Origin: Luzula sylvatica
Taxonomy: Eukaryota; Streptophyta; Magnoliopsida; Poales; Juncaceae
Assembly: GCA_946800325.1 (NCBI GenBank)
Contig: OX326956.1
Location: 38,223,082-38,287,081 of the forward strand
Length of the DNA stretch: 64,000 nt
Direction: 5' to 3'
The translations under genes and the position numbers were made by a program. The stretch's first letter is position 1; each line of letters begins with the position of its first letter. Below the pieces are notes generated by a model. That model ran no database searches and was not told the origin of the DNA. It was given only the letters and a program-made list of their open reading frames with translations. Below are positions 1 to 60,978 of the stretch, one piece after another.

Positions 1-445
1 GTCATGACGCAACATAACGTGCGTCACGACGGACTTCACAGGTCCGTCATGACGCCAGACAGTGCGTCACGACGGACCATACAAAACAATTTTGTTGTCT
101 ATTCCAGAAACTATTTCAGGTTCCTCCGTCATGACGGTTGGTTACTACCGTCACGACGGACCGTGTTCTTCCGTCATGATGCCAGACGGTGCGTCATGAC
201 GGACTGTACAAAACTATTTTGTCCAGATTTCCAGAAACTTTTTGAGGTTCTTCCGTCATGATGGTTGGTTATACCGTCACGACGGACTGTTCTGGTCCGT
301 CATGACGCCAGAGGGTGCGTCATGACGCACTGAACAAAACCATTTTGTTCAGTTTGCCAGAAACTTTTTGGACTTCTACCGTCACGACGCACCAAATGGT
401 CCGTCATGATGGTACGAATTTACACAGTGCGTCATGACGCACAAC
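1..445. repeat. 127-bp tandem repeat carrying four palindromes per unit
   Basis: Palindrome centres fall at 4.5, 26.5, 49.5, 69.5; then 131.5, 153.5, 176.5, 196.5; then 258.5, 279.5, 302.5, 322.5; then 384.5, 406.5. Each block repeats the previous one at 126-127 bp, and the order of steps inside a block is 22, 23, 20. Each palindrome is a version of CGTCATGACG or its relative CGTCACGACG. The sequence between them, including a 'CCAGAAACTTTTTG' stretch, is also shared between units, so this is a tandem array as well as a palindrome array. Confidence 0.85.
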
Positions 446-775
446 TTTTGTGCATCACGACGGACTGAGTAACGCCTCAGATCCAACTCTTGGATTTCCC
501 GTGTGCGTCATGACGCACCATATCGTGCGTCATGACGCACCAGACCTGAAATTCAGTTTTATTTTGTAATTTTAACAGATTTTAATCGTTTCAAAAACGA
601 TTAATCATGAACAATTCATGATTACTTCTAGATTCTTTTGATCATCTCATGATCAAATACTAGTAAGATTTCTATGGTCCTAATTTTACAACTACATGAT
701 TATGTCCTAAAATTCTACATGAAATTCCGAATAACACTTATTCGAAATCGATTCGACGATCGAATCGTGACGATC

Positions 776-787
776 GCTCTGATACCA
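776..787 (-). other. Primer-binding site, initiator Met-tRNA type
   Basis: Read on the minus strand this is TGGTATCAGAGC, the usual plant Copia primer-binding site complementary to the 3' end of initiator methionine tRNA. One base separates it from the LTR end at 789. It fixes the element as minus-strand and 789-1763 as its 5' LTR. Confidence 0.85.
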
Positions 788-788
788 C

Positions 789-1763
789 TGTTGGGTATCG
801 GCGTCACTACCGAGCCTCGCGCAGCGGATTGTGAGGCCCGGTCCGACCCGATCCCGAGGACCACATCAACGACCCGAAAGTACGAATCATGAAATGCATC
901 TAACCTATGAAATTAACGCTTAATTCATAGAGAATCATACCGCGTGAAATTGATCACGGAGACGGGTTGACTCTATTAGCTGCTGCTTGCTTCGCTCTTT
1001 GCTTCGATCCCGGCGACACACACGTCCCACGCCCGCGTGATTCGACACCTTGTTCTAAGCTCCTATTTGTCGTATACAACCGGAATTTATCCGATTCGTC
1101 TTCGACCTTGCTCGACTTAGCTCTCGTTAGATCACAGTCCAGAATCTCAGTTGAGATTCCTCTACTCGTATCCACCTCGAGCTCGCGTCTTTCGGTTGCG
1201 GCGAATTCCCCTAAAATTCCCGCAAGCTTGCTTAAATCTAATCTCTATTCTCCACTAACTTGTCTCACAAGTTCTCTCTATTCTCTACTAGAATTAGGTC
1301 TGGCAGCCAGAGAGAGAGAGGAAGAAGAATCCACAGATCTTATATTAATCTGAGAGTTAATGGTGTATTAATGAGTATCAGAAACTGCTAATCCAGAATT
1401 CGGATCACTGTGCGTCATGACGCACGATATGGTGCGTCATGACGCACAAGTCACATTTACTTGGATATAGCCGTTACACAGTGTACCGTCATGACGCACG
1501 ATAACGTCCGTCATGACGCACCACTCATGTGTACCGTCATGACGCAAGATAACTTGCGTCATGACGCACTACTCACAGATTGGCTTTCTCAGAATTACTC
1601 TATTGTGCGTCATGACGCACAATTTGGTGCGTCATGACGCACCATGTAATTTCTGCCAGATTTGCATAATCTTATTATGCATCCAATCGTTCCGACGAAC
1701 ACGTATGTTTGTCTACACTCATTTGTACATTCAACTAGTTGATCTGTAACTGTATTTCCTTCA
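789..1763 (-). mobile_element. 5' LTR (family 1) of the left-hand Copia-type element
   Basis: The plus-strand sequence runs from TGTTGGG to CCTTCA, so the LTR proper begins TGAAGG and ends CCCAACA. The same termini are seen in the LTRs at 37284, 41075 and 45678. A TATA-like stretch at 1336-1350 (minus strand) is followed by CT-rich DNA, as expected for the U3/R junction. Four pairs of the palindrome GTGCGTCATGACGCAC lie at 1410-1642, upstream of that box. The 128-codon reading frame at 967-1353 is inside the LTR and is not a gene. Confidence 0.8.
1410..1642. repeat. Four palindrome pairs in U3, each pair 22 bp centre to centre
   Basis: Centres are at 1417.5/1439.5, 1491.5/1513.5, 1539.5/1561.5 and 1612.5/1634.5: every pair is exactly 22 bp. 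The best copies are 16-bp perfect palindromes (GTGCGTCATGACGCAC); others differ only in the outer bases. Pairs are separated by 26 or about 52 bp. Confidence 0.9.
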
Positions 1764-7844: not shown

Positions 7845-8846
7845 CTAAGCATCAACGGTAGTAACCTGGAGCCACTCGCCATCGACGGCCTCTTTCCAAA
7901 GCGTGACATCATTTCTCCCGTCCGAAACCGCCAACACATTCCCCGTCTGCGACCAGGACAGTCTCCAGACCGGCACTTTAAAATCGTAGAGAACTCGGCC
8001 TTCCCACTGCTCCCCTTCCTTCCCCACCGTCCATATCACCACCGTCCCGTCTTGCGACGCGCTCGCCACCGTCGATTTCGCCAATCCCAGATTCGGCGCC
8101 CACGCCACGTCACGCACCCAGTCGGCATGCATTTGCAACGCGGGAAAACAATCCATCTTCCACGCACCATTGTAGAGTTTCCAGATTTTGACGGTGTTGT
8201 CGCATCCTCCAGAAGCGAGTTTCTGAACAAACTCTGACGAAGAAGCGGGGCCCACGAGGGAGCCGGGGGCGAGAGCGGGAGCCCAGGAGACGGAGGTGAC
8301 TCCGACTGGGTGAGCTTGGTCTATGTGAGCCGTGTCCCAGGAGAGGCCGTCTGGTCTGACCGTGAAGATGGAGATGTTACCGTCTGAGGAACCGGAGGCT
8401 AGACATAGACCGAGCTCGTGGGGAGCCCACGAGATCGAGTTCACGGAGGATTTGTGATCCGTGAAGACCTGTAACTGAGTCCACTCTTCAGGTTTCGCGC
8501 CTGGTTTATTCGAGAATTTGAATCAAAAGATCGAGATGATGAATTGGGTTAATTGAAGTTTGAAATTGATCGAGGAAAAGATACCTTCTTTCCAGATGAT
8601 AACTCGGCCATCGTTGCCGCAGGAGGCAAGAAGAGAAGGGCCGAATTTCGGGTGAGCCCAAGCGACCTGCCAGACCGGACCTTGATGACCCGTCAAAGTC
8701 GCCAAGTGCTGCTGTGAGGTACCGCTAACTCCGACGATCTTTATAGTCGAGTCCGACGAAGCTGTGGCTATGCGCTTCCCGTAGTAATCCATCGCCACAT
8801 CGTGTACCACATCTTGGTGCCCCGTCTCGATCTTCTGCGCCGGCAT
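7845..8846 (-). CDS. SEC13: SEC13 WD40 protein (COPII coat / nuclear pore)
   Basis: Two exons, 8846-8585 and 8500-7845, give 305 residues, close to known plant SEC13 (about 300). It starts [10 protein letters not shown] followed by [21 protein letters not shown], the first of six WD repeats; others show [48 protein letters not shown] and [16 protein letters not shown], ending with the C-terminal blade [15 protein letters not shown]13 pairs with SEC31 in the COPII outer coat for ER-to-Golgi vesicles and sits in the Nup107 nuclear pore complex. The ATG at 8846 is chosen because the in-frame codon upstream is GTG and homologues begin MPxQKIETGH. It is divergent from the gene at 9166. Confidence 0.95.
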
Positions 8847-14926: not shown

Positions 14927-16239
14927 TGTTGGTTCAAATTCTATTTGATTATTTCAAAACAATACTGATATTATTAATGATTTGCTCTAAGTGTTATATT
15001 AGGAAAACACCATTGATGCTAAATGGAACACAATCGTCATCAAAAGAAGAACAAGAAGAAAAAGAAAGATAAAGATAAATCAAGATTAATCTCGGGACGA
15101 CATTATTATTATTATTATTTTATCACATGCTAAGGTAACTAAGCCCCCCTAATTCACCTCCCTCTAGGCCATCTCGGGACGACATTATTATTATTATTTT
15201 TTTCTCTTGATTTTTTCAGAAAATATAATTTTCCCTCTTTTTATTATTTATCACATGCTAAGGTAACTAAGCCCCCTAATTCAGAAAAAGACTTATTGGG
15301 TCTCGTAAATTTCTACATATTTTTTTGTTTGTTAATAAGCATGCTTCTTGCTTGTTAGAAATGATTAGTTATATTACATTTAATTTACTAATCACATAAG
15401 TAATACATTTATGTAAGTCTTAATTTGTCAAAGAAGTATGGAATCAACTTTGCCAATAAAATGAAATGGATGTTTTCCTTTCGAACAAAAGAACTTTCAT
15501 TCGAACGATTAAGTAGAATATCAAATCCTCAGATTATCATAAGCACTTCCGTTCCAATGGAGCACAATAATTTAAACTTCCGTTCGAATGGAAAAACCGT
15601 TCCGTTCAAACAGAGCCTGGCGTGTTTCATCATTTCATTACAACAAATAATTTGATTTGACGTTTCTTTCGAACAGAAAAACCGTTTCATTCAAACGGAA
15701 GCCGCCGACTTTCAAACAGAATCTCTCTAGTAATCCTAATCTATTTCCAATTTCTTAATCTCCAAACGAATCCAACTCGTGTGACCGATCGATAGTTATA
15801 TAGAAAGGAATAGTTGACAATTTATAATAGGTTAGTCGAGCAACTGTAAAGCCCTTTGATATTGATATATAGAAACATTTAAATCGATATCAGAATCGTT
15901 GTTCCATTCCAAAATGTGAATAAGAGCAAAATGTGCAAGTTGACCACAGGTCTTCCCAAAGACGTAGATACTCGTAAAAGTTGAATTGGTCATTGAGTGA
16001 GTAAAAGATAGTTAAATATGCATAGTACTTATCCACCAAACTTCGTTAACAATCTTGAACGTTTGCGATCTGGTATGTTCGGTTACTTTTCTCTTTGTGT
16101 TAGTTACTTTTACGTATTTTAAATTGATACGTTAATTAACACATCACTGATTTGCATTGAATACTGTATTCGAGAAAAATAGGTATTAAGTCATTACTAT
16201 TACACATTCACCCCTTTCTATGTTATTTAGAAAACAACA
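14927..16239 (+). mobile_element. Solo LTR, family 2 (SIRE-like ending)
   Basis: It starts TGTTGGTTCAAATTC and ends ATTCACCCCTTTCTATG...AACAACA, the 'TTCACCCC(C)TCTAG' ending common in SIRE/Maximus-type Copia LTRs. Its start matches 16288 and 59465, and the TCGTGTGACCGATC and GACGTAGATACT blocks near 15780 and 15961 match both. No primer-binding site follows and the flanks (AGACA/GTTCT) do not match, so it is a solo or rearranged LTR. Degenerate TTCGAA palindromes lie at 15480-15700. Confidence 0.65.
15091..15291 (+). repeat. Imperfect tandem duplication inside the family 2 LTR
   Basis: The stretch TCTCGGGACGACATTATT...TTATCACATGCTAAGGTAACTAAGCCCCC...TAATTCA occurs at about 15091-15153 and again at 15173-15283, the second copy longer by an AT-rich insert. 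Neither of the other two family 2 LTRs shows it. Confidence 0.75.
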
Positions 16240-16904
16240 GTTCTTTCGTATGTTTTAGGAATCAAACTGACTAAATAACGGAGAAATTGTTGGGTCAAAT
16301 TTTATTTGATTGTTTCAAAACAATACCGATACTACTAAAGATTTTCTCTAAGTGTGTTGAATTAGAAAAAATACCTTCAACGTTGAAGCACACCAAAATC
16401 AAAAGAAGACAACAATTGAATATCCAACAAGACACAAGCTTGTAGTCACCAAGAGAGAAGTGTATATTCAAGAAGAAGTCACAAACTTCATATTCTTCAA
16501 GGCAGAAGTCCATAATTGGATATTCAAGAAGAAGACACAAATTCCATACTCTTCAAGGCAGAAGTTCATATTCAAGAGGTGTATATTCAACAAGGCACAA
16601 GTCCATATTCTTCAAGCCATAATTGAATGCTCAAAAAGAATCAAGTGAAAATGCATCAAGACGTCAAGTGAATACTGTTCAAGACACAAGTGCATATTCA
16701 AGAAGAGTCGAGTGGAGATTCTGGTGATACTTAAAGACAAAGATGTCCAAGACTTTCATGAGTTGGGATAACGCGCTAACTCAAGAATACAATCCAAAGA
16801 TTATTTCAAACTTATCTTCGTTCAAATTAAAGCTCAATTTATAAAATAATAAATCATCAAAACTCAAGTTAATGCAAAGCTAGTAACTTAGAATATTACA
16901 TATC

Positions 16905-17100
16905 CGCGTTCGAAAGATCCCTCGTTTGCGTTCGAACGATATTTTGTCTAAATGGTGAAAATATTCTAAGCCACAACATGCGTCCGAATGATATTAGTTT
17001 TGTGTTTAATTGTCGGAGGAAATTTTTGTTCCATTGGCCATTGGCACCAAATATGTCAGTTATCATTCGAACGATCATCTTTTTGCGTTCGAACGCAAAA
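16905..17100. repeat. TTCGAA palindrome pairs in family 2 U3
   Basis: CGTTCGAACG-type palindromes centred at 16911.5/16933.5 and 17068.5/17090.5: both pairs exactly 22 bp. Weaker copies lie at 16985 and 17163-17190. A TATA-like ATGAATATACCCC follows near 17306, so the array is upstream of the likely promoter. Confidence 0.8.
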
Positions 17101-17752
17101 TTAACAAACACTCTTATCAAGTATTCAAACCTGGAACAAAAGGTGATAAATTGAAATTTTGCGTTCAAAAGATTCGTATAGGCGCTCGAACGATGTGTGC
17201 AGAAATGCAATGATTTATGAGCCAATAGCTAGTTTGATCAACGTGCATCGTATTTGCGTTCTTACGCTTTGTGTTGTCAAACAAGGGTTTGGGGATGTAT
17301 CCTAATTCTATGAATATACCCCTCATACCTTTCTCTCTCCAGCACAAATATTTTAGCAAAATTTTGAGAGTGAAATAGCCAATTGGTAGAACTCTAATTA
17401 TATGAAGACAATTTAGAAACCAAATCCCATTTTCTTCCAACTCTTCAAGCATCAGCTCGTGTGACCGATTCGTAGGTTAGCTCGACATGATTAGCTTTGT
17501 GTTAAGCTACCAATTCATTTTTGTGAAAACTTAATCCGGTATCGATACCGTTGTAAATTCATATTGAAAACCTTATAATTCTTCATTTGGAAAAATGAAT
17601 AGAGTGCCCAAAATACACAAGATGGCCGTAGGACATTTTCGGAGACGTAGGTACTTCTGAAAGTCGAATAAATCAACTAGCAAGTAAAGGATAGTTAAAA
17701 CGAATGCAACTATCCATCAAAATTCGTTAACAAATCTTGTGTTCACTAGATT

Positions 17753-18620
17753 TGTTGATCTCGCGCCCCGCGCAGCGGATGAGGGACGCGGTTCGTTCCC
17801 TATTCCGAGGATCCCGTCTTCGATCTGGGCGTACGAATATGGAAGAATTGACAATCATACCGCACCAAATTGATGGTGTACGAAGGGTTGAAGCATTTCT
17901 TCCGTCTTGCCCTCCACGTCTTTCTTTCCACTCCGGCAACACGTGCATCCCATTCCCACATGACTCTACACCGTTGTTTTCCACCTTCTATCTTTCTCAT
18001 GTGCGTCCAACTCGTCTCTTCTCCTTGTAAGTAAACCGAAACAATTTCGGTCAAACCCTAACTTCAGTTTGTTAACAACCCGAGAGTCACAAGTATCACT
18101 CATCTACTCGTATCCACAGTGAGTTGTGGTCTATCGGTTACAAACGTGCTTGCCTAGACGACACATGTGTAAACTTGCTTAATCTCAATTCAATATTCTC
18201 TAATGGAGGAAAACATATTTTCTCCCTTTCTCTCTTTCATGTTCACACCTATTAGGATGTGTTCCAACTCTTGGATATTACTGAATAATGACTTGGTTAG
18301 TAAAGAGAGAGAGAAATATCCTATATGTATGATATAGAATAAGGATGAGCCAAATGTTGTGTATAATTGTTATACAGATTCAGAACACCTTCCGTTTGAA
18401 CGGAATAAGTTATGTCTCTGCGTTATGTATATGCAATCATATTACAAAAGAACTCATATGCTTCCATCCGAATGGATAAAACATTCTGTTCGAACGGAAC
18501 ATCTCCTAGAATATAGTTGTGCATAATCTCATTATACACTTAATCATTCCCACGAACGCATATGTTCGTTTGTCTTTATGTGTACAATTTTACCGTTGAT
18601 CCAAAACTGTATTTCCTTCA
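17753..18620 (-). mobile_element. Family 1 LTR inserted in a family 2 LTR
   Basis: The right end (TTGATCCAAAACTGTATTTCCTTCA) and the left GCGCAGCGGATGAGGG block match the other family 1 LTRs. The host sequence resumes on the right as expected for LTR family 2. The left terminus reads TGTTGATC instead of TGTTGGG, and I could not define a clean target-site duplication. TTCGAA-core palindromes at 18469.5/18491.5 form a 22-bp pair; another at 18397.5 stands alone. Confidence 0.65.
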
Positions 18621-19336
18621 TGTTTGGTATTGATTTCTTGCGTTCATTTTTTGCATTATTTAATTTACTGAGTTAATAACACAATCCTATTAGAAATTGA
18701 ATTTGATAATACTTGAAAATATGAATGAAACCATTATTTTAATTTACATATCGTCCTCTTCTAGATCGTTTGGAAATAACAGACAATATTTGTGTTGTAT
18801 TATTTAGTTACAAATAATATTAAATTTTTTTAAAACATAAATATTAATTAGGAAAATTAATTTTATGATTTTATTAAATATTTGCTGGGTAGCAATGCAC
18901 CCGGAGCCCCGCGCAGCGGAATAGAGGGCCCCGAGTCCGGACTATCCTAGTCTCCGAGATCACGTCACCTTTCCGAAAGTACGATGCAAATAGAAGATCA
19001 AACTACGTACCACACGAAATTGATCGCGTTCGAAGGGTTGATCGCTGCTATTTGCTTATCACCGAGTTTTCCTTCACGTCTTTTACGCGCGTCCCATACC
19101 ACGCGTACTTGCGTCTTCGTTGTCGTATACAACCGAGAGTTTCAACTCCGGTTGTTTTTCCAAACGCTCTCGTTTGCTTCTCCGGTTTGACTACAATCAA
19201 GGATCAAACGTATGATCCCTCTACTCGTATTCACCATGAAATATCATCTATCGGTTACGACACACAACTGCCTAGACGATGTGTGCGTACATGTGCTTGA
19301 TTCGATTGAATTCTCGTTGTGGGAAAAATGGTTTTT

Positions 19337-19340
<4 letters not shown>

Positions 19341-19393
<53 letters not shown>
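19341..19393. repeat. (CT)n microsatellite in an LTR
   Basis: A 53-bp pure CT run in the R-like part of the LTR, at the same place where the other LTRs have short CTCTCT runs, so it looks like an expansion of a family feature. Confidence 0.9.
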
Positions 19394-19394
<1 letters not shown>

Positions 19395-19574
19395 GCATTC
19401 ACACTTAATCAACAATTGAACAAGTGTCTCACTGAATTGCATTACTTGGCATACCTAGAGGAAAGAGGAACATCATATTTATATTCAACATGATAAGGAC
19501 ATCCCAAAAGACACATATTAAACATATAAACTCGTGTATAATAATAACATGTCTAAAACAGCCTCTGACACTCT

Positions 19575-19832
19575 ACCGTCATGACGCTAGATATGGTGCG
19601 TCATGGCACATGAGTGCCAATATTAGTCTCTGGAAGAAATACGTCCACTTCCGTCATGACGCACGGATGTCAATTATTCTCTGGACAAAATACGCCTACT
19701 TCCGTCATGACGCACCATATCATGCGTCGTGACGGACTAGCGTGTTTGGCTAAATTTGGCAAAGACAATAACCCTTATTGGTTGTATACGTCTAGTTGCG
19801 TCACGACACACCATATGGTGCGTCATGACGTA
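19575..19832. repeat. TCATGA palindrome pairs in U3 of the solo LTR
   Basis: Centres at 19581.5/19603.5, 19707.5/19729.5 and 19803.5/19825.5 are each 22 bp apart, with one unpaired copy at 19656.5. Some have mutated (CGTCGTGACG, CGTCATGGCA). Confidence 0.85.
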
Positions 19833-19954
19833 CTGTATGTAAAAGCTGAATTTTGCACAATCCCATTATGCATTTATTCGTTTCCTTGAACGTGTACGTT
19901 CATGTGTCTTTATACGTACTCTTTTATGGTTGATCCAAAACTGTAATTCCTTCA

Positions 19955-21591: not shown

Positions 21592-21885
21592 GGCTGATTT
21601 TTTAAACTAACCATCTTTTAAAGTTTTATTACCAAAATAACCAAGTTTTGAAGATAATTACCAAAATAGACAAAGGCGGCATCTCAAACTCCGCCAAATT
21701 AAAAATGGCGGCATCTCAAACTCCGTCAAATTTTAAACACTTAATACCTCAACTAACCTCCATCGGGAAATTAACAGAATTAAAAATTTGGCGGAATTGG
21801 TAACTCCGCCACTGTAGAAATTGGCGGCATCTCAAATTCCGCCATGTTGCAAATTGGCGGCATCTCAAACTCCGCCAATTTTGCC
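21592..21885 (+). repeat. Left terminal inverted repeat of the MULE
   Basis: The outer ~140 bp is nearly identical to the reversed right end. The inner part contains four copies of GGCGG(C)ATCTCAAACTCCGCC-like modules, themselves short inverted repeats (GGCGG...CCGCC). Confidence 0.85.
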
Positions 21886-22183
21886 GCCTATTCTGTCCAG
21901 TCTCTTCTCTCTCCCTCGCCATTCCCCCATTTTCTTCGCCTCTCTCCCGATTTCCTCTTCTCTTCCCCGGCGATTTCGAGCAAGGTACGTTATTTTCGCT
22001 ATTTTTTGTTCTAAAATTTGGTATTTTGTGTTATATAATGATTCTATGTTTCAATTTTGATCTTTTTATGACTGATTTGTGCGATTTGGAGATGATTTCG
22101 TTTGCTTTTGAAGAGATTGTCTCCAAAAAATTTGAGGTAATTTTTCTCTCAAATTAGAGTATGATTTATGATTGTTTATGATT

Positions 22184-37283: not shown

Positions 37284-38295
37284 TGAAGGAAATACAGTTT
37301 CAGGATCAACCGTAAAAGTGTACACAAGGATAAACGAATGTAAGCGTACATTCGTGGTCATATCTTTCAGTAGGAAAATCCAATTTGAATGGTTCAAATT
37401 GGGTTAGATAGATAATAAGATTATCTACAACCTTCATATAGAAATATATTTCATATGAACGAAGTATTAGTGTCGTTTATATGAAATACCGAAAGGGTGC
37501 AACAGTTTGACATACAGTTAGTAAAACAGTCATAACGTTTGCATACGAACTCCAATTGGGACGGGCCAAATTGGGTCGTGTAGATAATAAGATTATATAC
37601 AACTTTCGTGTTGGTTGATGTTCTGTCAGAGGAAATTACCAATTTCGTATGGACAGAATACTGGACAGATACATGCAACTTTCTGTGTGAAAGAGTGTAT
37701 ATTGGATATACATGTCTTTTGGCCCATCCTAATCCTATGTGATATAAATAGGATAATTCTCTCTCATCTCAATGGTTCATTTCAGTTAATTAATTCAGAA
37801 TATTCCAGAGAATTGTAAGACAACTTTCTAGAGAGAGAAAGGATGTAAAGAGAGAGAAACCGTGAAAATGTGTTTTCTGGTATAGAGAATCAAACAATCA
37901 AGCAAGTTCGCCGGTGCATCGTCTAGGCAGTTGCACCCATGACCGACATCTTACGAGTCAAGGTGGATACACGTTGAGGAGTCACGATTGGGGCTCTTTC
38001 GGTTGTGATCGATTCGAACGAGTAATTTCTGTCGGAGATGAAATCGAGTGAATCGGCGACGTTAACGAACGGTGAAAGACGCGTGGTGTGGGACGCGCGG
38101 ATTGTCACCAACGTGACACGAAAAAGAAGAATAGCAATCAACCCTTCGTGTGCAATCAATTTTGCACTGGTATGAATCTAATCTTCTTATTTGCATCGTA
38201 CCCGTCGAAGTCATGGCGTGATCTCGGGAATCGGGGAACCGGACCGGGCCTAAATATCCGCTGCGCGGGCCCGGGGCCGGGTAGAATCCCCAACA
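37284..38295 (+). mobile_element. 5' LTR of the Copia-type element
   Basis: 1012 bp, TGAAGG to CCAACA. A TATA box (GATATAAATAGG, about 37741) precedes a CT-rich start region. It differs from the 3' LTR by about 14 substitutions by my count, plus one 26-bp indel. Confidence 0.93.
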
Positions 38296-38296
38296 G

Positions 38297-38308
38297 TGGT
38301 ATCAGAGC
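38297..38308 (+). other. Primer-binding site of the Copia-type element
   Basis: TGGTATCAGAGC, one base after the LTR end; complementary to initiator methionine tRNA. Confidence 0.92.
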
Positions 38309-41074
38309 GATCGCCATCGATTCGAGGGTCGAATCATAGTCGTATATTAGATATACGCACGGGTTATCAAAGTTCGTACCCGTTTGCATGATGTTACATA
38401 TAGAGAAAGTCAAATTCCGTTAAAATCACAAGTGAAATTCGTTAGAGATCGATCAAAAGTTGATTGAGAGTATCTAGGAATGATCATGAAAAAGTTTCAT
38501 GATTTATCGTTTTGGAAACGAGCGAAAACGGACGAAACGGCAAAATCTGCAGAAAATTAGAATACGAAACAGTGAGTAAAACTAAGATAATTTTCAGTGG
38601 GAAACTCCACATTGATTGGATCAAATTGGCGTAGTTAGATAATGAGATTATCTATGACTTTGATACATAAAGTTTTTTCATTTGAACGAATTATCAGTGT
38701 CGTTTTTATGGAATACTGAAAGGGTGCGACTGTTTGACATACAGAGACTAAAACGTCCGTATATGTCGTATCGAAACTCCAATTGAGTCCAATCCAATTG
38801 GGTTAGTTAGATAATAAGATTATATAGAACTTTATTTCACGTTCAAAGTCGGTTGGAACAATTTAATATTTTTGTTTCAACAGAATACTGAAAAGGTGTC
38901 TGTAGTTTTCAGGTTGAAAAGGTGTGTATTGGATATACTTACCTTTTCGTTTGTTCGTATTTTACTAAAACTGGTATAACTTTCAGTAGGAAATTCCGAT
39001 TTGAATGGTTCAAATTGTGTTAGTTAGATAATGAGATTATCTAGAACTTTCATGTTGTAATATATTTCATTTGAGTGGAGTATTAGTTTCGTTCTAATGA
39101 AATATCGAAAGGGTGCAGAAAAACAGTTTTTCTGCCGCCCCGGAGGCAGTTTTTGGCGCCCCGGGCGAGGTTTTCTCAACGGATGGGGCAGTCCATTATA
39201 ACGGATCCCCTTCTTGATGCTGATTTTGTTTTCGCGATAACTTTGGCTACGAAGCTCGGAATTTTGAGTTCTTTATATCGATACGACCGGAATCAATCAT
39301 TCTAGCATGTTAGATAATTCATTGTTTAGAATAATTAGTCTCCCTAATTAAATCATATGCATTAAAAATCTTGTGATAGTGATATAATATGATTATGTCA
39401 CGAATAAAGAAACATGAATGTCATGATCCCTCATAATATTTAAATCATGGAAATACCTTCCATATTCACAACCACTATGTTCGGTACTACGTCTCACATG
39501 GGTTAAGGCCAAAGCCGACATGGGTTATTGTAGTCATCGACGGGGTGGAAAGCGTTAAATAGGGACTGATAAGGGTTAAGACCAAAGCCGACTTATTAGT
39601 AGTTTATTTGAACGATACGTTGAGTATGGTTGTGACTTAACCGTTCAAGCCAGTAAGGGTTAAGGCCAAAGCCGACTTGATTGGATGTTCGGGGCATAGA
39701 TAGGATGCACACACGGAAATGAGATTGTATATGATATGATCCATCACCGAAATCCTATAAAGGTTCAAGAGTCGCATATGATGCGATTGGATATAATCCT
39801 ACCTAAATAGCGAGATCCCACCCGTCTGCCAAAGCAACTTGTGGGAGGATCGTGAAATATGGGTCTTGAGTGTTATGGACTTGGAGTCCCGTATCGGTAT
39901 GAGGTTTATCGATTCGATAAAATAATACTATCATATAATTATCATATAAGCATATAGATTAAGTACGCACGGTTAGGAGTTTAATCTTCATCATCCGTTT
40001 AGAATTATGTTTTCAAGCAAAACCAAATATATCGATGAGATCGATATTATAGATGGCTTTTGGGCCGGAATTACCATGATTAACCTTGATAGTCAAAGAA
40101 TAGTTCTTAGACTTAAAGGAACGTGTTGGACACGGAAAATGGTAGATTTGGGGCTCGAGGCTTTGGCTTTAGAGAAAGCCGGGTTCGATACACTTTAAGA
40201 AGGAATCGAACAATATTACGTGCCTTACGGTGGCATGTATAGACGCGAATTTCTCAAAATTATTTTGAGAATTTGGGTGTATATGAAAATAAAACACAAT
40301 GCTCATGAAATAGTTTCAAGAGCTAGAGCGCGTTGAATGGTTCAATGCGGCTCAAAGAGTAGGTTAATTTTGAGACGCCTTATGGGTCTTTGATTAACAC
40401 TCGTGTGTTGATGGTACGAGATTTGATCTTCGTGACCGAATATCATATGCATTCGATAGATAAGTCGATCCCGAAATTGCATGTGATGCGATGTAAATTT
40501 GAATAGGAGATGCTTAGAGTGTCCGGGGAATCCAAAGCATAGAGATGCGTGGATGTCCTTGTAATTCAAGGATGGGATCGAAAGAAATAAATGTCTAAGG
40601 GTATTTTGGGAAAATATTTTCCAAACAGAAAGTTCGGACAAGGAGTTGTCCAAACAAATGACTCAAAGAACGGTGAAATCCGAGGAGGATTAAACCTAGA
40701 AGTTGATTGCTTCTTTTGGCGTTGCCGTCTTGGCCATATAAACGAGATACGTGTATCTAGATTCCATATGATAGATTGCTAGAATCATTCGAATTAGATT
40801 CGATTGATTAATGCGATACTTATTTATTAGGCAAGATGACAAAAGGCATCATTCTCCAAAGGTTGGAGAAAGATTCAACGAATTATTCGAAATTACATTA
40901 AGATGTAAAAGATCCGATAAATTCCGAGGCAAGAGGAGGCTATCAGTATTTTGTTACGTTTACGGACGATTAAAGTAGATATGATAATATCTATTTAATG
41001 CGTGCCGCGACGGAGATTTTTTGAAAGGTTCAAAGAGTTTCAAAAACAAAATACAAAATCGACTTAGCAAGAAA

Positions 41075-42136
41075 TGTTGGGAATTCACCCATCCCCGGGC
41101 CCGCGCAGCGGATATGAAGGCCAGGTCCGGTTCCCTAAATCCAAGATCACGCCATGACTTCGAGGGTACGATGCAAAGTAGGATAGACGATTACCAGCGT
41201 GAAATTGATCACGCACGACGGGTTGATCGCTCGCATCCTTCTTTTCCTTCGGTGTCACGTTGGTGACTAGCCCGTACGTCCCATACCGCACGTCTCCCAC
41301 CGTCTTGACACGCCTCGGGTTGTCTTCGTGCGTTCCATGCCCACATGCTTCCACAGCCCGTTACTCGATTCGCTCGTATCCGTCTACGGCAGATTTCGTT
41401 CCTCCGAATCGATCACAACCGAAAGAGCCCCAGATGTTGCTCCTCTACTTGTATCCACCTTGACTCGTAAGACGTCGGTCGCGGGTGCAACTGCCTAGAC
41501 GATGCACCGGCGAACTTGCTCGATTGATTGATTCTCAATACCGGAAAACACCTTTTCACGGTTTCTCTCTCTTTACATCATTTCTCTCTCTAGAAAGTTG
41601 TCTCACAATTCTCTGGAATATTCTGAATTAATTAACTGAATGAACCACACCAGATGAGAGAGAAAAATCCTATTTATATCATATAGAATTAGGATTGGCC
41701 AAAAGACATGTATATCCAATATACACTCTTTCACACAGAAAGTTGCATGTATCTGTCCAGTATTCTGTCCATACGAAATTGGTAAATTCCTCTGACAGAA
41801 AATCACCCAACACGAAAGTTGTAGATAATCTTATTATCTACTCGGCCCAATTTGTCCTGGCCCAATTGGAGTTCGTATGCAAAACTTATGACTGTTTTAC
41901 TAACTGTATGTCATACTGTTGCAGCCTTTCGGTATTTCATAGAAACGACACTGATACTTCGTTCATATGAAATATATTTCTATATGAAGGTTGTAGATAA
42001 TCTTATTATCTATCTAACCCAATTTGAACCATTCAAATTGGATTTTCCTACTGAAAGATATGACCACGAATGTACGATTACATTCGTTTATCCTTGTGTA
42101 CACTTTTACTGTTGATCCTGAAACTGTATTTCCTTC
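41075..42136 (-). mobile_element. Solo LTR of family 1, nested and reversed
   Basis: 1062 bp from TGTTGGG to CCTTCA on the plus strand, flanked by identical AGAAA (41070-41074 and 42137-42141). Its reverse complement is close to the LTRs at both ends of the host element over almost the full length. A full copy must have inserted and lost its interior by LTR-LTR recombination. Confidence 0.93.
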
Positions 42137-45100
42137 AAGAAAATCAAAGTCCTTTGATAGGATCGAGGAGGCAAGTATTTGAGCTACGCAATTCGATAGG
42201 ATCGAAGAGACGATATTTGAGTTATAAATATTGATTATCATTCATGATTGTGAAATCGTTTCACGATTATTTTCATTTCGGAACATTGAGATGTGTCCGA
42301 AAAGAGGAATTGAACGCATGTTGGACATGTTTCGATAAATGATAAGTCAAACGGATCTCCCAAAAATGTTTTGGGGATACGCCCTTGAGACAGCGGCACT
42401 AATGAATGGTTGCATATATGATATGGACCATAAACCTTCTAATCGGTACAAAAGACGTCATATGAGATATGGATCGGAATGGTTCCGAAGTTGTCATTTA
42501 TACAGATTTGAGGATGTGAGTATATTTCGAAATTTGTTTCGATTAAACTCAATCCCAAATCTGAAAATTGTTCGTTTATCCTTAAGGAAACTAAAGGGTA
42601 TTAGTTCTAACGTCCCGACGAAAATAATATTTTCGTGGCTCGAAGAGATCCCTTCTTGGAGGAGGACATAATGCGCACAAGTTTGGAACTTGATGTCATT
42701 TATCTCTACGCGGGCTAGTGGGAGTAGAATAAATCTTGAAAGAGTTCGAGATCTGAAAAAATGAACATTGAGCCGATGAAAGTTGACACGACTTCATCAA
42801 GAGTTGATGAATACGAGTCGAACACACAAAGGACTTTTTTGTAGATCAAGTAGGCTATATCATAAGCCGATAAATACGGATTTGTCGTGGCTAATGATGA
42901 TAGATCGAAATCATATGATGATTAGATATTCTACAATGATGCTATGAAAAATAAAGATTCCATAAGGCAAGATGCCATGAAATCTGAGATTCGATCCGTG
43001 TAAATTATCAAATTTAGAACTTGATTTCATTACTTTCCGGGTTAGACCCGTGAAATGTCAATGGGTTTTCAAGATGAGAACCGACACGGATAGGAATACG
43101 CATATATGTAAAGCGAGGCTTGTAGCGAAGAGTTTCATGCAATTCATAGTGAGACTATGAAGAAACGTTTTCGCATGTTGCCATGCTTTCACATTCTCGA
43201 AATTCTGCTTACCATGGTCGCATATTATGACTATGTGATGTGGCAAAATGGATGTCAAAACCGAATTTCTTGACAGAAATTTTATGAAAGGGTGTGTACT
43301 TGACACAACCTTACGGTTTTTTCGATTCATAAGAATCGGGGATAGGATATGCACGCTTTAACGATCCATATGATGGATTAGAAAAAGCTTCTCGGAATTG
43401 GAATATTCGTTTTGACGAAGTTATAAACTGTTATAACATTGTCGAAACGAAGGTAAAACTTTGTGTACACATGAAGGTTAGTGGGAGTCACGTTATATTT
43501 CTTGTAACGACACAAAATTTAGGCGAGACCGCTTATGAATTAAGCGTGAAGATATATATGATAGATCTAAGAAGTTCCTCGTTCTATATTATAGCATGTA
43601 TATCGACATATTGTTGAAAATGGTTTTCCACATATAACTCCTTGGCGGAGTTAAATCGAAATGTCGAACGACAGAAATTTTCTACGGCTCGATGTGAGAC
43701 ATCAAGTAGGGCGGAAAATAATAATATGATGCTTTACATTTGATGTGAGGATCTATTATATCTGTCATGACATGTATGTGGCTATACGTCGTACACATAA
43801 AGCGTCTAATTCATCGTCATTAAAATCCAAGGGAATCACACGAGTTTGAATGTAATGCGATTACATGAGACTAACTCTTGTGAATGTATAATGGTTATAC
43901 ATATATATCCATAATGGTTATGTATATTTAAACCCATCGGGATTTGTATTAATAGCGGTGAAGTTTATCCTTGAATACTTTATGAAAGAATTCAGGATTT
44001 TATTTTATCTATAATGGTGTGAATGACGTGTTGATTCTAAAGAGTTATAACAACAACTGTTTCCAAATATGGCACGTCCAAATATGTAGCACGACTTTTG
44101 ATCACAAAGTGTGTACATGATTTGCTTAAACGAAAACATGGTTATGGGGAAAGGTTCCACATGACCAATAATTAATGATTCTATTTACGGAGGCGAGTAT
44201 ATTGTGGTTAGGAATCACAAAAGGAAGCGGTATGGATCAAGGATACATGACCAAACTCGAGTAGTCACGAGTTATCGGATTTATGGTTGTGGATTGCGTG
44301 AGACGCAATAGTACAAGTCAAAAAATGCCGAGGTCACAACCACTTCTAGCCAATACTCAGAAAATTTTATTTGATCCGTGAAATTTTGTGAAAAGATGTG
44401 ATCATAGGTATATGGAAATGTTCCAAACCTTAAGAAGATTAACACTAGCAGCAACGTGCGGAACCGTTTACAAAACCGCTCTCTCTAGTCGCGCGTGAAT
44501 GTCATGCGATGACTATGGGTATGAGATACCTAGAGGAGGAAGAAGAGAGTAGAGTGTAGTTATCTAATACGATAGTCCTCGCAGGTTGTGGGTATGGAGA
44601 TACCCATAGGTAAACGTTGCATCGCCCCAATACTTAATCCATATGAGTGCATTTTAAAAAATTTGTTTACTTAAATTTTTATGCATTCACCTTATATGAA
44701 AACTGTGTGCGGGTTGTGTAATTTGATTACATGAACCCTGATTTGAACTTGTGTGGACGTCGACATAGTTGAGGACTATGTGCAGCGAAACCGTCACACT
44801 TAAAGTTTCATTTCTAAACATCCCTAGTCATGATTCAGTTTGCTTAAGAGTGAAGCATTTACATTATCAGATAATAGACTGAACATGTACACTAGTACGT
44901 TAGCCGAGGAGATGATTATGTTTTGCTAATCATAGGACAAAGGTGTTTGTCGAATCGGGAACGTAGATATATGCTAGGTGACATATATTGGATGGACTTG
45001 CGACGAGTAGGGTATTAGGTTCTTCATACTTGAGGGGACCATTGATTGCGTTACGTGCGTAACACAATGCTTTGATATGATCTTACGCTCACCGTAACAG

Positions 45101-45665
45101 GGAGCTAAAACGGTCATCATTGGGTATTGTCCGAAACACGGAATTCAATGTGAGTCTCCAAGATAGGAATTGTTTATTCCGAAAGGAAGAGATATCTCTT
45201 AGGCCACTCGATGAATTGATTAACGAAAACCAAGGCCTTGGTCAATGATATTAACGGTTAATATCGATTGAATTTGTTAAATCAGTTCGGAAACGAGGAA
45301 TAAGTATAGTTAATCAAAATATAAGGATGACTACCACCATGCCTTTTAATTAACGGATATCGATAACAAGAGAACTAATGACCGCTATTCGAGATAGGTA
45401 CAATGATCACAATCATTCTTCGTGTTAATATGGGTAGCCATGATGGAGTAACTAGATCCCGCTCATGGGCTTGTAGTGCTATGGAAACAGCCTACTGCCA
45501 TCGTTAACCGAACCTACTTGGTCACACAACGAGTCGTACTAAGTCGGGCTTGATTATAAAGTTGGCACATAAGATGTGCGTAGCTTGGTATATGATACGC
45601 GAGCTATATTCTCTAAAATCGTGCATATTGGATATGCACGAGTACCTTTTAGGTAGATCTGAAAT

Positions 45666-45676
45666 TGAGTGGGAGA
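45666..45676 (+). other. Polypurine tract
   Basis: GAGTGGGAGA just before the 3' LTR start at 45678, the usual site for plus-strand priming in Copia elements. Confidence 0.75.
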
Positions 45677-45677
45677 C

Positions 45678-46663
45678 TGAAGGAAATACAGTTTCAGGAT
45701 CAACCGTAAAAGTGTACACAAGGATAAACGAATGTAAGCGTACATTCGTGGTCATATCTTTCAGTAGAAAAATTCAATTTGAATGGTTCAAATTGGGTTA
45801 GATAGATAATAAGATTATCTACAACCTTCATATAGAAATATATTTCATATGAAATACCGAAAGGGTGCAACAGTTTGACATACAGTTAGTAAAACAGTCA
45901 TAACTTTTGCATACGAACTCCAATTGGAACGGGCCAAATTGGGTCGTGTAGATAATACGATTATATACAACTTTCGTGTTGGTTGATTTTCTGTCAGAGG
46001 AATTTACCAATTTCGTATGGACAGAATACTGGACAGATACATGCAACTTTCTGTGTGAAAGAGTGTATATTGGATATACATGTCTTTTGGCCCATCCTAA
46101 TCCTATGTGATATAAATAGGATAATTCTCTCTCATCTCAATGGTTCATTTCAGTTAATTAATTCAGAATATTCCAGAGAATTGTAAGACAACTTTCTAGA
46201 GAGAGAAAGGGTGTAAAGAGAGAGAAACCGTGAAAAGGTGTTTTCTGGTATAGAGAATCAAACAATCAAGCAAGTTCGCCGGTGCATCGTCTAGGCAGTT
46301 GCACCCATGACCGACATCTTACGAGTCAAGGTGGATACACGTAGAGGAGTCACGATTGGGGCTCTTTCGGTTGTGATCGATTCGAACGAGTAATTTCTGT
46401 CGGGGACGAAATCGAGTGAATCGGCGACGTTAACGAACGGTGAAAGACGCGTGGTGTGGGACGCGCGGATTGTCACCAACGTGACACGGAAAAGAAGAAT
46501 AGCAATAAACCCTTCGTGTGCAATCAATTTTGCACTGGTATGAATCTAATGTTCTTATTTGCATCGTACCCGTCGAAGTCATGGCGTGATCTCGGGAATC
46601 GGGGAACCGGACCGGGCCTAAATATCCGCTGCGCGGGCCCGGGGCCGGGTAGAATCCCCAACA
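45678..46663 (+). mobile_element. 3' LTR of the Copia-type element
   Basis: 986 bp. It lacks about 26 bp present in the 5' LTR: the missing stretch lies between two ATATGAA words near 45850, so the deletion probably arose by slippage at that short repeat. Confidence 0.93.
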
Positions 46664-48440: not shown

Positions 48441-48586
48441 AAATTAATAATATCAATTCAAATAACTCTTAAATTCTCTTATTTTTATTTGTTTTTGCAT
48501 GACCGGATTTCATACATAATAACCTAGAAAATAAATTATCTAGAATATCTTCAATTATTTCTTTTTCTGCCAAATATTCATTCATA

Positions 48587-54412: not shown

Positions 54413-55065
54413 AATTAATCCTACTAAAATATTTTATAAACATTTTTCTCAAATATTACGTTGCCACGTCATCTTTTCTACCCAAAATCATGTTATACCG
54501 GATATCAAATAGTAATCCTACTAAAATATTTTATAAACACTTTTCTCAAATATTACATTGTCACGTCATCTTTTCTACCAAATCATTTTATACCGGATAT
54601 CAAATAGCAATCCTACTAAAATATTTTATAAACACTTTTCTCAAATATTACATTGTCACGTCATCTTTTCTACCCAATCATTTTATACCGGATATCAAAT
54701 AGCAATCCTACTAAAATATTTTACAAACACTTTTCTCAAATATTACATTGTCACGTCATCTTTTCTACCCAATCATTTTATACCGGATATCAAATAGCAA
54801 TCCTACTAAAATATTTTATAAACACTTTTCTCAAATATTACATTGTCACGTCATCTTTTCTACCCAATCATTTTATACCGGATATCAAATAGTAATCCTA
54901 CTAAAATATTTTATAAACACTGCCACTTCATCTTTTCTACCCAACCATGTTATACCGGATATCAAATAGTAATCCTACTAAAATATTTTATAAACATTTT
55001 TCTCAAATATTACGTTGCCACGTCATCTTTTCTACCCTAACATGTTATACCGGATATATCAAATA
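54413..55065. repeat. 95-bp tandem repeat, about seven units
   Basis: Units run TCCTACTAAAATATTTTATAAACAC... to ...TTATACCGGATATCAAATAG. Steps are 95 bp for units starting near 54511, 54606, 54701, 54796 and 54891; the sixth is shortened by about 19 bp, and the outermost units are the most diverged (GTTGCCACG instead of TTGTCACG). Overlapping frames here are products of the repeat. Confidence 0.93.
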
Positions 55066-55408
55066 GTCGCTAAATTATAATTAAATCTCTCTAGCCCAAG
55101 GACCCTTTTGCAAAAAAAATAAATAATTAAATCTCTCCCGTCTCTTTCATTATGTCCCAATTGTCCCATCTCCTTCAATTTCAGTACATCTCCTAAATAA
55201 TAAGGTTATTCTTCACGCCTCTCACTGAAGAAGTCTCTCTTTATCGCCATTTCTTCTTTCTGCCTTCTCTGTCGGTGATTCCCTTCTTTGCTTTTTTATT
55301 TGCGATTATTTGCTACTTTTTTTTTCCGATTCTTCAGAGTAAAGTTCCAGCTGGGCTGTTTTCTTCTTATTCCTTGTCATCTGAAAAGAGGATAGTCTAC
55401 TCTTTAAG

Positions 55409-56951: not shown

Positions 56952-58178
56952 TATTTTGACGTTCGAAGACCAAACTCATTTCAAAAGTATTCAATCATAT
57001 ATGTTTTTTATTTTTGATGAATGTTTGTTTCTTCAAGGAGTTTCAGTTTCTATGTATGATTTGTTTTAAAAACGGAATTTCATTATGTATGATTTGTTTT
57101 AAAAAATTCTGAAAATGGAAGCTGTACCAAAATATGAAAAAGTGCAAGGATATATATACACATGGCAGCCAATAGTAATATGAAATCCAGGGGTTTAATT
57201 GAAACAATGCATCTGAAAAAATGTTGTCAAATAAGATGGTCTATTTCGAGGTTTTGACCAAAAGAATATAAGCAACAGTAAATGTAATATTGGATTATTA
57301 TGTGTACATACTAATTCAATGCTAATTGTTTTTTGTTTGTGAAGAATAATATATTTGAATGATATTATAGAATTGTTTGTTTATTTAATTGCACATTTTT
57401 GAACTTTAGATTTCTAATTTGACAATATCTCGAACTGTTATTGAGTTCTTTGATGGGTCTGCATTGTTTATCATTAATTGTTATTGATTTGTTAATTAAT
57501 TGATTTGACAAAAAAGTGCAGGGATATATATACACGTATGCACGTAAAAATTTATAAGTTTATTGCTCCCATATACGGCGTAAATTTTGGGTATATCTTA
57601 TTTAATCTCATGTTGTTTCTGTTAAAAAATTCACTAATTGTTCCTGTCTAACTAGCTTAAAACTGAAAAAGTAGGGAATAAATAAAAATAAATGGTAGGC
57701 TTTATGCATAAGTTTCTGTTTTGATTCAAATAAAGATAGGTGAAACTGGTTGAGACACTAATTGGAAGAAAGGCGGGGTCAGCAAGTTGGTCTTTGCATC
57801 TAAGACTTAATCTTGGTTGTGCTTATTTTATCTATCTAAGAACGGTTATTACTATTATTCCTTTGTTGTTATCCATCTATTATGAGAAATGTTTTTTTGT
57901 TGATATAATAAGATGCAAAAATGCTTCACCAGATGAAGTCCGATACTGAAATTTGTATATGCATTGCAAATTGGGTCCCACCTGTATTTATTATTTTTTG
58001 TATATAAAATATTATTTCGGGGGTAATTATGTGGATGAATTCGGCGATTCTAACATTCCCCTAATAAAATGAGTATTGTAATATCTAAAAAGCCCAAAAT
58101 TTGATCATTCTAATCATGATAGTACCTTGAACCTGATAGCTACAATTTTTTAATTATCATGTGACTTCAATTTATAAT
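56952..58178. other. AT-rich intergenic DNA, no gene seen
   Basis: A 69-codon frame at 57740-57949 has a hydrophobic middle but no recognised motif. Nothing else stands out. Confidence 0.55.
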
Positions 58179-58737
58179 CTATGTTACGCGGATACTTCAA
58201 AAATGCAGAAGTATCCTGAGGATACGGGTATCCGATACGGATACGGATACGATACGGCTTGGATACGTATCGGATACGCCACGTGGCGTGTCCGATTATT
58301 TTAATATTTATTTTTTTCGGATACGGCGGGGATACGACATGATACGGCAGGATACGGCTGGGATACGTTCAGGATACGGCTGGGATACTCCATTTAGGAT
58401 ACTTCGGCCCAATATATGTTTTGGCCCATAATATTTTTAAATAATTTGTATAAGATACTTCTATGATACTTCTAGGATACTTCTAAAACTAGTTTTACGA
58501 TACTTCTAAAATAAATTTAAGATACTTTTATGATACTTGTATTGTTATGTTGATTTTTTTTATTGTCATGATATTTAATTTAAAAATATTATTTATTTAT
58601 TTATTATATATAATATAAATATATTAAAATTATAACTATATAGCCGTATCCGTATCCGTGGTTTTTCAAAAATTACCGTATCGCCGTATCCGTATCGTAT
58701 CGGATACGATATCCGTATCCGTATCCGTGCAACATAG
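58179..58737. mobile_element. Non-autonomous hAT-type element rich in GATACGG
   Basis: Ends are inverted (CTATGTTACGCGGATAC and CTATGTTGCACGGATAC) and flanked by identical 8-bp TTTATAAT at 58171-58178 and 58738-58745, the duplication size of hAT elements. Both halves are filled with GATACGG / CCGTATC words in inverted order, plus a perfect CGCCACGTGGCG palindrome near 58277. No coding capacity. Confidence 0.9.
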
Positions 58738-59464
58738 TTTATAATCTCTATTAGATACGGATCGCTGCTAAATTTTTATGAAGGAATTATTGTTTCATTG
58801 TTGATAGGAAGTGTTCAGGAATAGATACAAACCCGCACACTTGTCACCATTTTCATTTTAACAAATTGATTCTTTTTTGTTTGTTTGACAATTATGAATT
58901 GAAATCGGTGATCATTGGAGATGGAAAGAGCCACCAAAAAGGGCGATTTCTACCAAAAGAGAGGAAAAATGAAAAAAAGTTGATACCGGGGACGGATGGT
59001 GGCAGATTAAACGGGTTCAAAACGAAAACCCGCGACCCTACATCCCATACAACAAACAGAGGCGACACAACCATTACTACCCCCCAGAACAAACACTTCA
59101 CAGGCCACCACAAAACAACAATGCAAGCTCGCTTAGGCAACCAGTACCACAAGCGCCAAAGCAGGGAGAGAGGTAGAGCCATGGCTGCTGGACAGTACCC
59201 TCGGAACCATGGTTCTGAAACTCGGACTCGGACTCGGACTCGGTTGGCTCCGGAGACTCGGAACTCGGACGACTCGGACAAGACTCGGACGAGTAAAAAA
59301 AAAAACTCGGACGCATAGTAAAAAAATCGGAAAAAATAGAAAAAAAAATAATTTTTTTTTAAAAAAAAAAAGATAACCATTCATAAACATGATACACACA
59401 AATTCAACTAATAAAACCTAAATTACTACATTAAAAAAATTACATTACATAACAAAATTAGTAT

Positions 59465-60978
59465 TGTTGATTCAAATTTTCGGTTGTTTGATTATCTCAA
59501 AAATAATGTCGATATTACTAACAAAATCTATCGAGAATGGTGTATAGGATACATAGGTACAAAATGCAATAAGAAGAACAAGACGTCGAAGAATCGCAAA
59601 GAAGATCAAGACGTCGAAGAATCGCAAAGAAGATCAAGACGTAGAAGAATCACGGAATCAAGACATCGAAGATTCCGTAAGTTGGGATATCAATCTAATC
59701 ACCAAAACACAATATATGTATCCCTAAACTTGTTTATGTATGATTAAGCTCAAAATAAAAGTCAAATAAATATATTCGAAATCCTGAATTAATATAAAAG
59801 GCTGAAATGAGGATGTCCGTTACAACGGAACCCAGTGTCCGTTATAACGGACATGCTCGTCCTATTTAAGAATGAAAACACAGTATAGTCCGTTACAACG
59901 GATTAACCAATCCGTTATAACGGACTTCAATAAAGTGTTGTAACGGAGTAATGTCCGTTACAACGCTAATTAAATTCAAACTTGAAGGATGTCACAGAAG
60001 TATGTCCGTTGTAACGGACATATATGTCCGTTCTAACGGACATTGAACTCACTTCAGTACAATACAATTCTCTTTATGTCCGTTGTAACGGATTAACCAA
60101 TCCGTTATAACGGAATGTCTTATAGCGTTGTAACGGAGTATTCTCCGTTATAACGAGAATTAAATTCAAACTGAAGTGAGGTTTCAGTATGATGTCCGTT
60201 GTAACGGACATGATAGTCCGTTGCAACGGACTTCATAACACAGACTTCCGTTATAACGGACATGTATTCCGTTGTTACGGAATTTGTAACAATTCGAATA
60301 TAACAACCGTAACGGCTAGTTTTGACTTACAGTCCGTTATAACGGACGTGCAGTCCGTTATAACGGACTATGCAGAAAATGCAAGTTTGGAAAGGGTCTA
60401 TATGTTCTATAAATAGAACCCTTCCCTCATTCTCTCTCACTACTTCATCTATCCAAATTATACATTCAAAAGAGAGAATTCTTGCAAAACCCATTGAGCC
60501 CTTAATCTTTTAAAACAATCTTAGAGATTAATCTTTCCTTTTTCCCCCTCCAAATACGATTCCCAACTTGCGTGACCGATCACGTTTTAGTTCGTATTTA
60601 GAAATTGTAATAGGCTAGTACTCAGAGTGTAAAGCCCGCCATAGATCGATAGAAAACGTGTAAATCGATCTAGGCAAAACCTTGTACGAGTGAGTTGGAA
60701 TTCAATCGAACGCCGAAAAGGCACAAGGCATTCCCGGAGACGTAGGTACTTGCCACTAATCGAATCGGTCGATTAAGCAAGTAAAGGGTGAGTTAAAGCT
60801 ACAAAGCAACCACCTACCGAACTCCGTAATAAACATCGCGTGTTCATCGTGTTCGGTATTTGCATTATTTTAGTTAAATTATTTTAAGCTTCCGCGTAAA
60901 TTAGAATTGGTATACCTTAGTCGAAAATTGTACGTTAGGATTACCTATTCACCCCCTCTAGGTTGGAATTAACCAACA
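59465..60978 (+). mobile_element. Solo LTR, family 2, with TTATAA palindromes
   Basis: 1514 bp from TGTTGATTCAAATTTT to ATTCACCCCCTCTAGG...ACCAACA; start, TGCGTGACCGATCACG and GACGTAGGTACTT blocks match the family 2 LTRs at 14927 and 16288. Flanks AGTAT and AGTAC differ by one base, so a slightly decayed 5-bp duplication. A TATA box (CTATAAATAG, about 60407) follows the palindrome array directly. Confidence 0.85.
59815..60372. repeat. Eighteen CCGTTATAACGG-type palindromes in nine pairs
   Basis: Pair centres: 59822.5/59844.5, 59895.5/59917.5, 59940.5/59960.5, 60011.5/60033.5, 60085.5/60107.5, 60130.5/60150.5, 60201.5/60223.5, 60253.5/60274.5 and 60339.5/60360.5: spacings 22, 22, 20, 22, 22, 20, 22, 21, 21. 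The four at 59895-59960 and the four at 60085-60150 both step 22, 23, 20. The array ends some 45 bp before the TATA box. Confidence 0.92.

Follow-up and report, generated by a model that had tools for sequence, protein, structure and literature searches.

A 64,000 nt stretch of the Luzula sylvatica genome (hereafter the window) contains arrays of short palindromes in the long terminal repeats (LTRs) of two retrotransposon families, A and B. The arrays were repeats of the dyad CGTY-NN-RACG, paired at about 22 bp, in the U3 region and in one element also in the leader. The arrays are real and well beyond chance expectation. Judged from the sequence, they are on balance likely to be enhancers for a host dimeric transcription factor.

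Palindrome arrays and their counts

Sites were scored by matches to the eight fixed positions of CGTYNNRACG, with at least seven of eight taken as near-consensus. Site and pair counts were compared with 30 runs of a first-order Markov simulation of the whole window. CGTN4ACG occurred 54 times (simulated mean 5.6, maximum 11) and 30 of the 54 sites had a self-complementary N4 (simulated mean 0.43, maximum 2); these clusters sit where an earlier note on this DNA had placed them. Exact CGTYNNRACG was found 46 times in 2,616 scanned array positions and twice in 61,304 other positions; one of the 46, at 1688, was counted with the arrays yet lies just outside one. Near-consensus pairs 20–23 bp apart numbered 32, of which 17 were exactly 22 bp apart; the simulated mean was 0.27 and the maximum 1. 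All 32 pairs were inside arrays, and a 22-bp pair was present in seven of seven arrays, one partner scoring just 6 in array b.

Sites scoring at least 7 numbered 17 in leader a, 8 in U3 a, 18 in f, 8 in e, six in c, five in d, and two in b. Transitions at CpG positions made up 27 of the 64 departures from the consensus (11 of 15 in d and 4 of 5 in b), which is suggestive of past methylation, the departures being too few to use.

Similar paired sites were returned by scans of sequence collections in 3, 1, and 3 viral and 19 bacterial stretches (by title; GC 0.41–0.75), with no plant relative among the matches. Mostly these held one pair and a few strays, with short tandem runs in some (L006, L015, L024); from composition alone they were judged chance or unrelated rather than relatives. 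One viral contig, L006 (59% GC), carried four CGTTCGAACG palindromes 21–22 bp apart at 418–491.

LTR families and array-bearing copies

LTR copies were grouped by self-comparison and alignment. Family A LTRs (TGAAGG...CAACA; CAGCA in copy c) included copies a, b, and c, both LTRs of element i, which is full-length, and a solo LTR at 41075–42137. Family B LTRs (TGTTG...CAACA) comprised copies d, e, and f, all LTRs or LTR pieces with no internal region in view. The 3′ LTR parts matched at z 14.4 to 30.8 within families (seven pairs) and at −0.8 to 3.4 between families (five pairs), and the window self-comparison gave no A–B match of at least 60 bp at E ≤ 1e-8. Copy f was grouped with d and e on the 3′ LTR part comparison; it gave no BLAST match to either at the same length and E-value. 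Arrays were found in six of the nine LTR copies with a readable U3:

1..540, minus strand: leader array of family-A element a, core TCATGA, 17 sites scoring at least 7, behind the primer-binding site (PBS)
776..788, minus strand: PBS region, GTGG followed by TATCAGAGC, directly after the LTR end (read from the sequence)
789..1763, minus strand: LTR of family-A element a, TGAAGG...CCCAACA, 975 bp (by alignment)
1410..1644, minus strand: U3 array of element a, eight perfect CGTCATGACG in four 22-bp pairs
14927..16249, plus strand: family-B LTR copy d, rearranged, limits approximate
15478..15718, plus strand: array of copy d, decayed TTCGAA core, pairs 20–22 bp
16288..17752, plus strand: family-B LTR copy e, first part, followed by the inserted family-A LTR b
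16907..17266, plus strand: array of copy e, TTCGAA core, pairs at 22 bp (two) and 21 bp (one)
17753..18620, minus strand: family-A LTR copy b, nested in copy e
18393..18496, minus strand: array of copy b, TTCGAA core, three sites scoring at least 6, one 22-bp pair
18883..19954, minus strand: family-A LTR copy c
19577..19830, minus strand: U3 array of copy c, TCATGA core, three 22-bp pairs (one with a score-6 site)
59465..60978, plus strand: family-B solo LTR copy f, flanks AGTAT/AGTAC, end CACCCCCTCTAGG...ACCAACA
59818..60365, plus strand: U3 array of copy f, 18 sites scoring at least 7, TTATAA-type core

The array of copy d held one 22-bp pair with both sites scoring at least 7, its remaining pairs involving score-6 sites. 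A TATA box, TCTATAAATAG, stood near 60408, after the array of copy f. The stretch 1–540, previously read as LTR, is instead the 5′ leader of element a, because it follows the LTR end and the PBS on the minus strand. Beside element a, positions 1764–1968 looked by eye like the 3′ terminus of a further family-A LTR running the other way, apparently the insertion target of element a. Just outside a family-A LTR, at 1991–2210, were five CGGTACCG palindromes (GGCGGTACCGCC type), 50–53 bp apart (starts 1993, 2046, 2096, 2148, and 2199), which carry the CGG-CCG signature of Sireviruses.

Pair spacing and helical register

The 57 adjacent spacings had a peak resultant of 0.73 at 10.3–10.4 bp, and none of 2,000 random placements, a null that leaves out the two-site array b, was as high. 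Among the 24 gaps of at least 28 bp the resultant reached 0.82, with none of 20,000 jittered sets as high. A helical register of the longer gaps, near multiples of 10.4–11 bp, is supported, more weakly than the 22-bp pair itself.

Spacers with the sites masked were without similarity between families in 11 of 12 comparisons, the exception being a versus f (p = 0.013, uncorrected). With the 22-bp pair in both LTR families, this bears out the proposal that spacing is kept while sequence differs. The further proposal that spacing holds in every copy stood for all seven arrays; three family-A LTRs contained no CGTN4ACG whatever, namely the two LTRs of element i (37284–38295 and 45678–46663) and the solo LTR 41075–42137.

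Cores and half-sites

All three cores come down to one of two half-sites, CGTC..GACG or CGTT..AACG, around a loosely kept inner dinucleotide. Every one of the 31 sites scoring at least 7 in leader a, U3 a, and U3 c had C as half-site Y; of the 33 such sites in d, e, b, and f, 32 had T. Copies with TTCGAA and TTATAA cores have the half-site CGTT/AACG in common, TCATGA copies carrying CGTC/GACG, so the statement that the core had changed completely between copies was too strong.

A single core per copy, also part of the earlier description, was found in U3 a (eight of eight sites) and in none of the other six arrays, where the inner two bases varied. Inner dinucleotides were AT (11) and AC (6) in leader a, and AT (7), GT (6), AC (3), CT (1), and GC (1) in copy f, where 8 of 18 sites had a self-complementary core. 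Decay accounts for part of this within-array variation. Family-specific cores were ruled out: the core does not track family because TTCGAA was found in b (family A) and in d and e (family B).

Element i and the agreement of U3 and leader

Two further family-A copies lacked full palindromes:

37284..46663, plus strand: full-length decayed family-A element i, 5-bp target-site duplication TAGAT
37355..37720, plus strand: U3 repeat block of element i, without full palindromes but with a decayed 22-bp pair (37452/37474)
38577..39203, plus strand: leader of element i; its repeat block 38577–39117 matches the element's own U3 block
41075..42137, minus strand: solo family-A LTR, same subfamily as i, target-site duplication TTTCT, weak 22-bp pair

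U3 blocks matched the leader block of their own element at z 40.6 in a and 95.9 in i, a match that rests on two elements and whose score is inflated by palindromes in a. Blocks of a and i did not match each other in any of the four cross comparisons (z −1.0 to 0.2): leader against leader gave −1.0, and each U3 against the other element's leader −0.5 and 0.2. The leaders of a and i were homologous before their blocks (z 12.4). Elsewhere in family A, the U3 of a matched that of c (z 19.0), and there was no match for b with c (0.0) or with i (1.0). Turnover "in concert" was supported in a form the earlier note had not seen, with U3 and leader blocks agreeing within, and differing between, the two family-A elements that have a visible leader.

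The U3 of element i and of the solo LTR was made of a different repeat. A decayed 22-bp pair was kept in two of the three family-A LTRs without palindromes, the 3′ LTR of i having lost its pair. Eight weak pairs (score at least 6) at exactly 22 bp occurred outside arrays, and five of them were in element i or the solo LTR (37452, 38679, 38851, 39172, and 41938), the middle three being in the leader of i. That leader also contained a single CATTATAACG at 39194–39203, one base from the family-B TTATAA site and 22 bp past a weak site. A weak RVT_2 trace in element i (42981–43157) came from a single 59-aa piece, with E = 0.0013 and a score of 18.9 bits against a cut-off of 31.6. The 5-bp target-site duplications and the Met-type PBS of family A agree with Ty1/copia.

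Comparison with known systems

Arrays of this general kind have been seen before: in 2010 Sireviruses were described as having palindrome arrays, specific to the family, on the upstream side of the TATA box. In 13 Sireviruses, palindromic repeated motifs lie upstream of the TATA box and also before ENV where present, with a CGG-CCG signature in 12 of the 13 and element-specific centers, and they are reported absent from classic Ty1/copia, i.e., Sirevirus-only (Bousios et al., 2010; PMC2829016). The present arrays share with these motifs a high-copy palindrome, an element-specific center, a position in the upper LTR half before the TATA box, and extra copies inside the element. At least eight motifs per element, the Sirevirus criterion, were present in f, a, and e and not in c, d, and b (i.e., in three of six copies). 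The arrays differ in sequence, all seven being CGTY..RACG rather than CGG-CCG, and in the place of the extra copies, which lie before ENV in Sireviruses but in the leader behind the PBS in family A. No spacing rule for the Sirevirus motifs was found in the available part of PMC2829016.

Family B fits Sireviruses by its integrase signal, and family A fails on the junction, the polypurine tract (PPT), and the integrase signal. The family-A junction in a and i was AACA-GTGG-TATCAGAGC, in which the first intervening base of the Sirevirus mark CA-A(T/G)TGG-TATCAGAGC is missing. The Sirevirus PPT octamer AGGGGGAG, which occurred in the window at 12733 and 27613 only, was not next to the family-A 3′ LTR; before 45678 stood GAGTGGGAGAC. 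By eye, no polyC-rich integrase signal about 21 bp from the LTR end was seen in the last 34 bp of six family-A LTR ends. Copy f, read by eye against the published description, ended in such a signal (CACCCCCTCTAGG and 16 bp), and copy d had a similar CACCCCTTTCTATG.

Arrays of binding sites in a 5′ leader behind the LTR are familiar from animal elements, as in the Su(Hw) array of Drosophila gypsy. The leader activator of Drosophila copia, another animal element, is likewise a binding-site array behind the LTR (PMC2829016). In Tnt1, Retrolyc1, and Retrosol, U3 modules turn over between subfamilies with the coding region conserved; the likeness lies in U3 regulatory sequence that differs between subfamilies, and the available part of that report gave no matching leader turnover for Tnt1 (PMC1838419). 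Maize Sirevirus LTR palindromes also form fast-evolving arrays with strong predicted structure in the cis region; their consensus is CACCGGACNNNGTCCGGTG, unlike the present sites, and no paired 22-bp layout was found for them in the parts of the two reports available (PMC10760457; PMC5311732). Titles and abstract starts yielded no 22-bp or helical spacing rule and no U3/leader matching in such arrays, which is no proof of absence. The present arrays are a further variety of Sirevirus-type motif arrays; their geometry rule and U3/leader match are the features that merit pursuit.

A probable host enhancer and the alternatives

TATA-like sequence, by a loose pattern, was present after the five mapped U3 arrays (a, b, c, e, and f), as in Sireviruses, and a host enhancer code was the better of the two ideas put forward in the earlier note. 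Under the enhancer reading, a host dimeric transcription factor would read the arrays, assembling on one face of the DNA and switching on the element's promoter, with the spacing kept by selection. The 22-bp rule may persist since two dimers two turns apart must touch. Turnover of the sites would come from repeated duplication inside the arrays together with copying between leader and U3, whether in the course of reverse transcription or through recombination. The TGACG of the TCATGA copies is reminiscent of TGA-type bZIP sites. Candidate factors are MYB, TGA bZIP, NAC, and LBD proteins. TAACGG, reported as a MYB2 site (PMC11995187), was present in the TTATAA copy.

A wider form of the enhancer reading is less likely than not, and we hold it tentatively. 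Two Copia families, only one of them a Sirevirus, would use one host-read enhancer grammar of fixed geometry, with dyads two helical turns apart and others spaced by whole turns. The half-site, the inner bases, and the spacers would turn over, and in family A the changes would be written into U3 and leader together, giving one matched code at both promoter ends.

Several observations weigh against a spacing-based host enhancer. Everything comes from one window and nine LTR copies, and TATA-like patterns are frequent, with 18 in f alone. Spacings within an array are not independent; collapsing similar spacers at 60% identity, a conservative procedure that joins some across families, left nine gap classes, which gave p = 0.0028 with the period fixed at 10.5 bp and p = 0.042 with the period scanned. 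The 24 long gaps alone peaked at 11.0 bp, not 10.5 bp, and the 26- and 28-bp gaps fell out of register. The power of the masked-spacer comparison is low, even a versus c, of the same family, giving just p = 0.07, and A and B, being weakly similar (z up to 3.4), may share a remote origin. The weak pairs of element i and the solo LTR came from a post hoc search, and those at 37452, 38679, and 41938, three of the five, appear to be copies of a single repeat. Lastly, the spacing rule could act on RNA, because hairpins were strongly predicted in three of the four palindrome arrays that were folded (U3 a, f, c, and e).

The RNA observation belongs to an alternative that we consider unlikely, in which the pairs are RNA or single-strand DNA hairpins (palindromes 22 bp apart around a short loop), kept as structure or seen by small-RNA silencing, a role put forward for the maize Sirevirus palindromes. 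Predicted RNA folding against shuffles gave z −10.0 for U3 a, −13.2 for 59810–60110 (about half of f), −8.1 for c, and −4.7 for the U3 of element i (37360–37640), which has no full palindromes. These scores do not discriminate between a hairpin and the other readings because any palindrome array folds well. Copy e keeps its 22-bp pairs, yet 16890–17190 folded at chance (z −1.1), which may be decay. Pairing of flanking bases between partners was 0.56 for inner and 0.51 for outer arms (37 pairs), compared with 0.47 in non-adjacent controls and 0.51 within sites (64 sites); as a test of hairpin against dimer, this small between-partner excess was not decisive. Small RNAs of maize map to Sirevirus palindromes (PMC10760457; PMC5311732). 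A hairpin, however, requires neither a self-palindromic site, nor exact spacing, nor register between pairs.

Less probable still is that the spacing is a by-product of tandem duplication or common descent, the pair being copied with its spacer and no function needed. Tandem units were plain (about 127 bp in leader a and 190 bp in f), many gaps fell in one spacer class, and A and B were weakly similar where f was compared in the 3′ LTR part (z 2.6 to 3.4). Against this, the same 22-bp pair stands in two families without a match at the length and E-value given above and with spacers unmatched in all but one of the masked comparisons, and duplication leaves the nine gap classes near whole turns unexplained, modest as their p-values are.

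It is very improbable that an element-encoded protein reads the arrays for self-recognition or anti-silencing, as VANC does for VANDAL elements: the short motifs are dispersed in the elements' own non-coding DNA and turn over between relatives, and the window holds a Mutator-type element whose plant-mobile-domain protein gives a sub-threshold match to DUF1985, but that element is separate (terminal repeats 21591–21733 and 26399–26541) and b, c, d, e, and f are LTRs without internal sequence in view. This second idea of the earlier note found no support in a thin test, in which five of the 54 open stretches listed for element i were scanned and gave the weak RVT_2 match and a sub-threshold, likely chance PGM1_C match, and no DUF1985-type protein. 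Among ten pieces scanned, DUF1985 had one weak match, at 23978–24724 in the Mutator-type element (E = 0.0027, below the cut-off).

Other features of the window

The Mutator-type element (21591–26541) had 143-bp terminal repeats 95.8% identical to each other, an open reading frame (ORF) with a MuDR DNA-binding domain, a plant-mobile-domain ORF, and telomere-like GTTTAGG repeats at 22174–22464. A SEC13-like host gene piece at 7845–8441 was 88% identical to a Juncus effusus hypothetical protein (the best of 1,256 matches, 120 of them listed), pointing to a rush relative as the likely host. Repeats comprised a tandem array of diverged units of about 170 bp (47138–48456), a long inverted self-match (51686–52508; 71% to its reverse complement, 866 columns), and a satellite-like array of a 95-bp unit (54417–55067).

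Implications

When Sirevirus palindromes were reported in 2010, no function for them was proven (PMC2829016). A spacing rule held in two families with different cores and spacers gives a testable claim, namely that the geometry is selected and the sequence follows its partner. If general, the U3/leader match would suggest that the same reader serves both blocks and that the two are renewed jointly.

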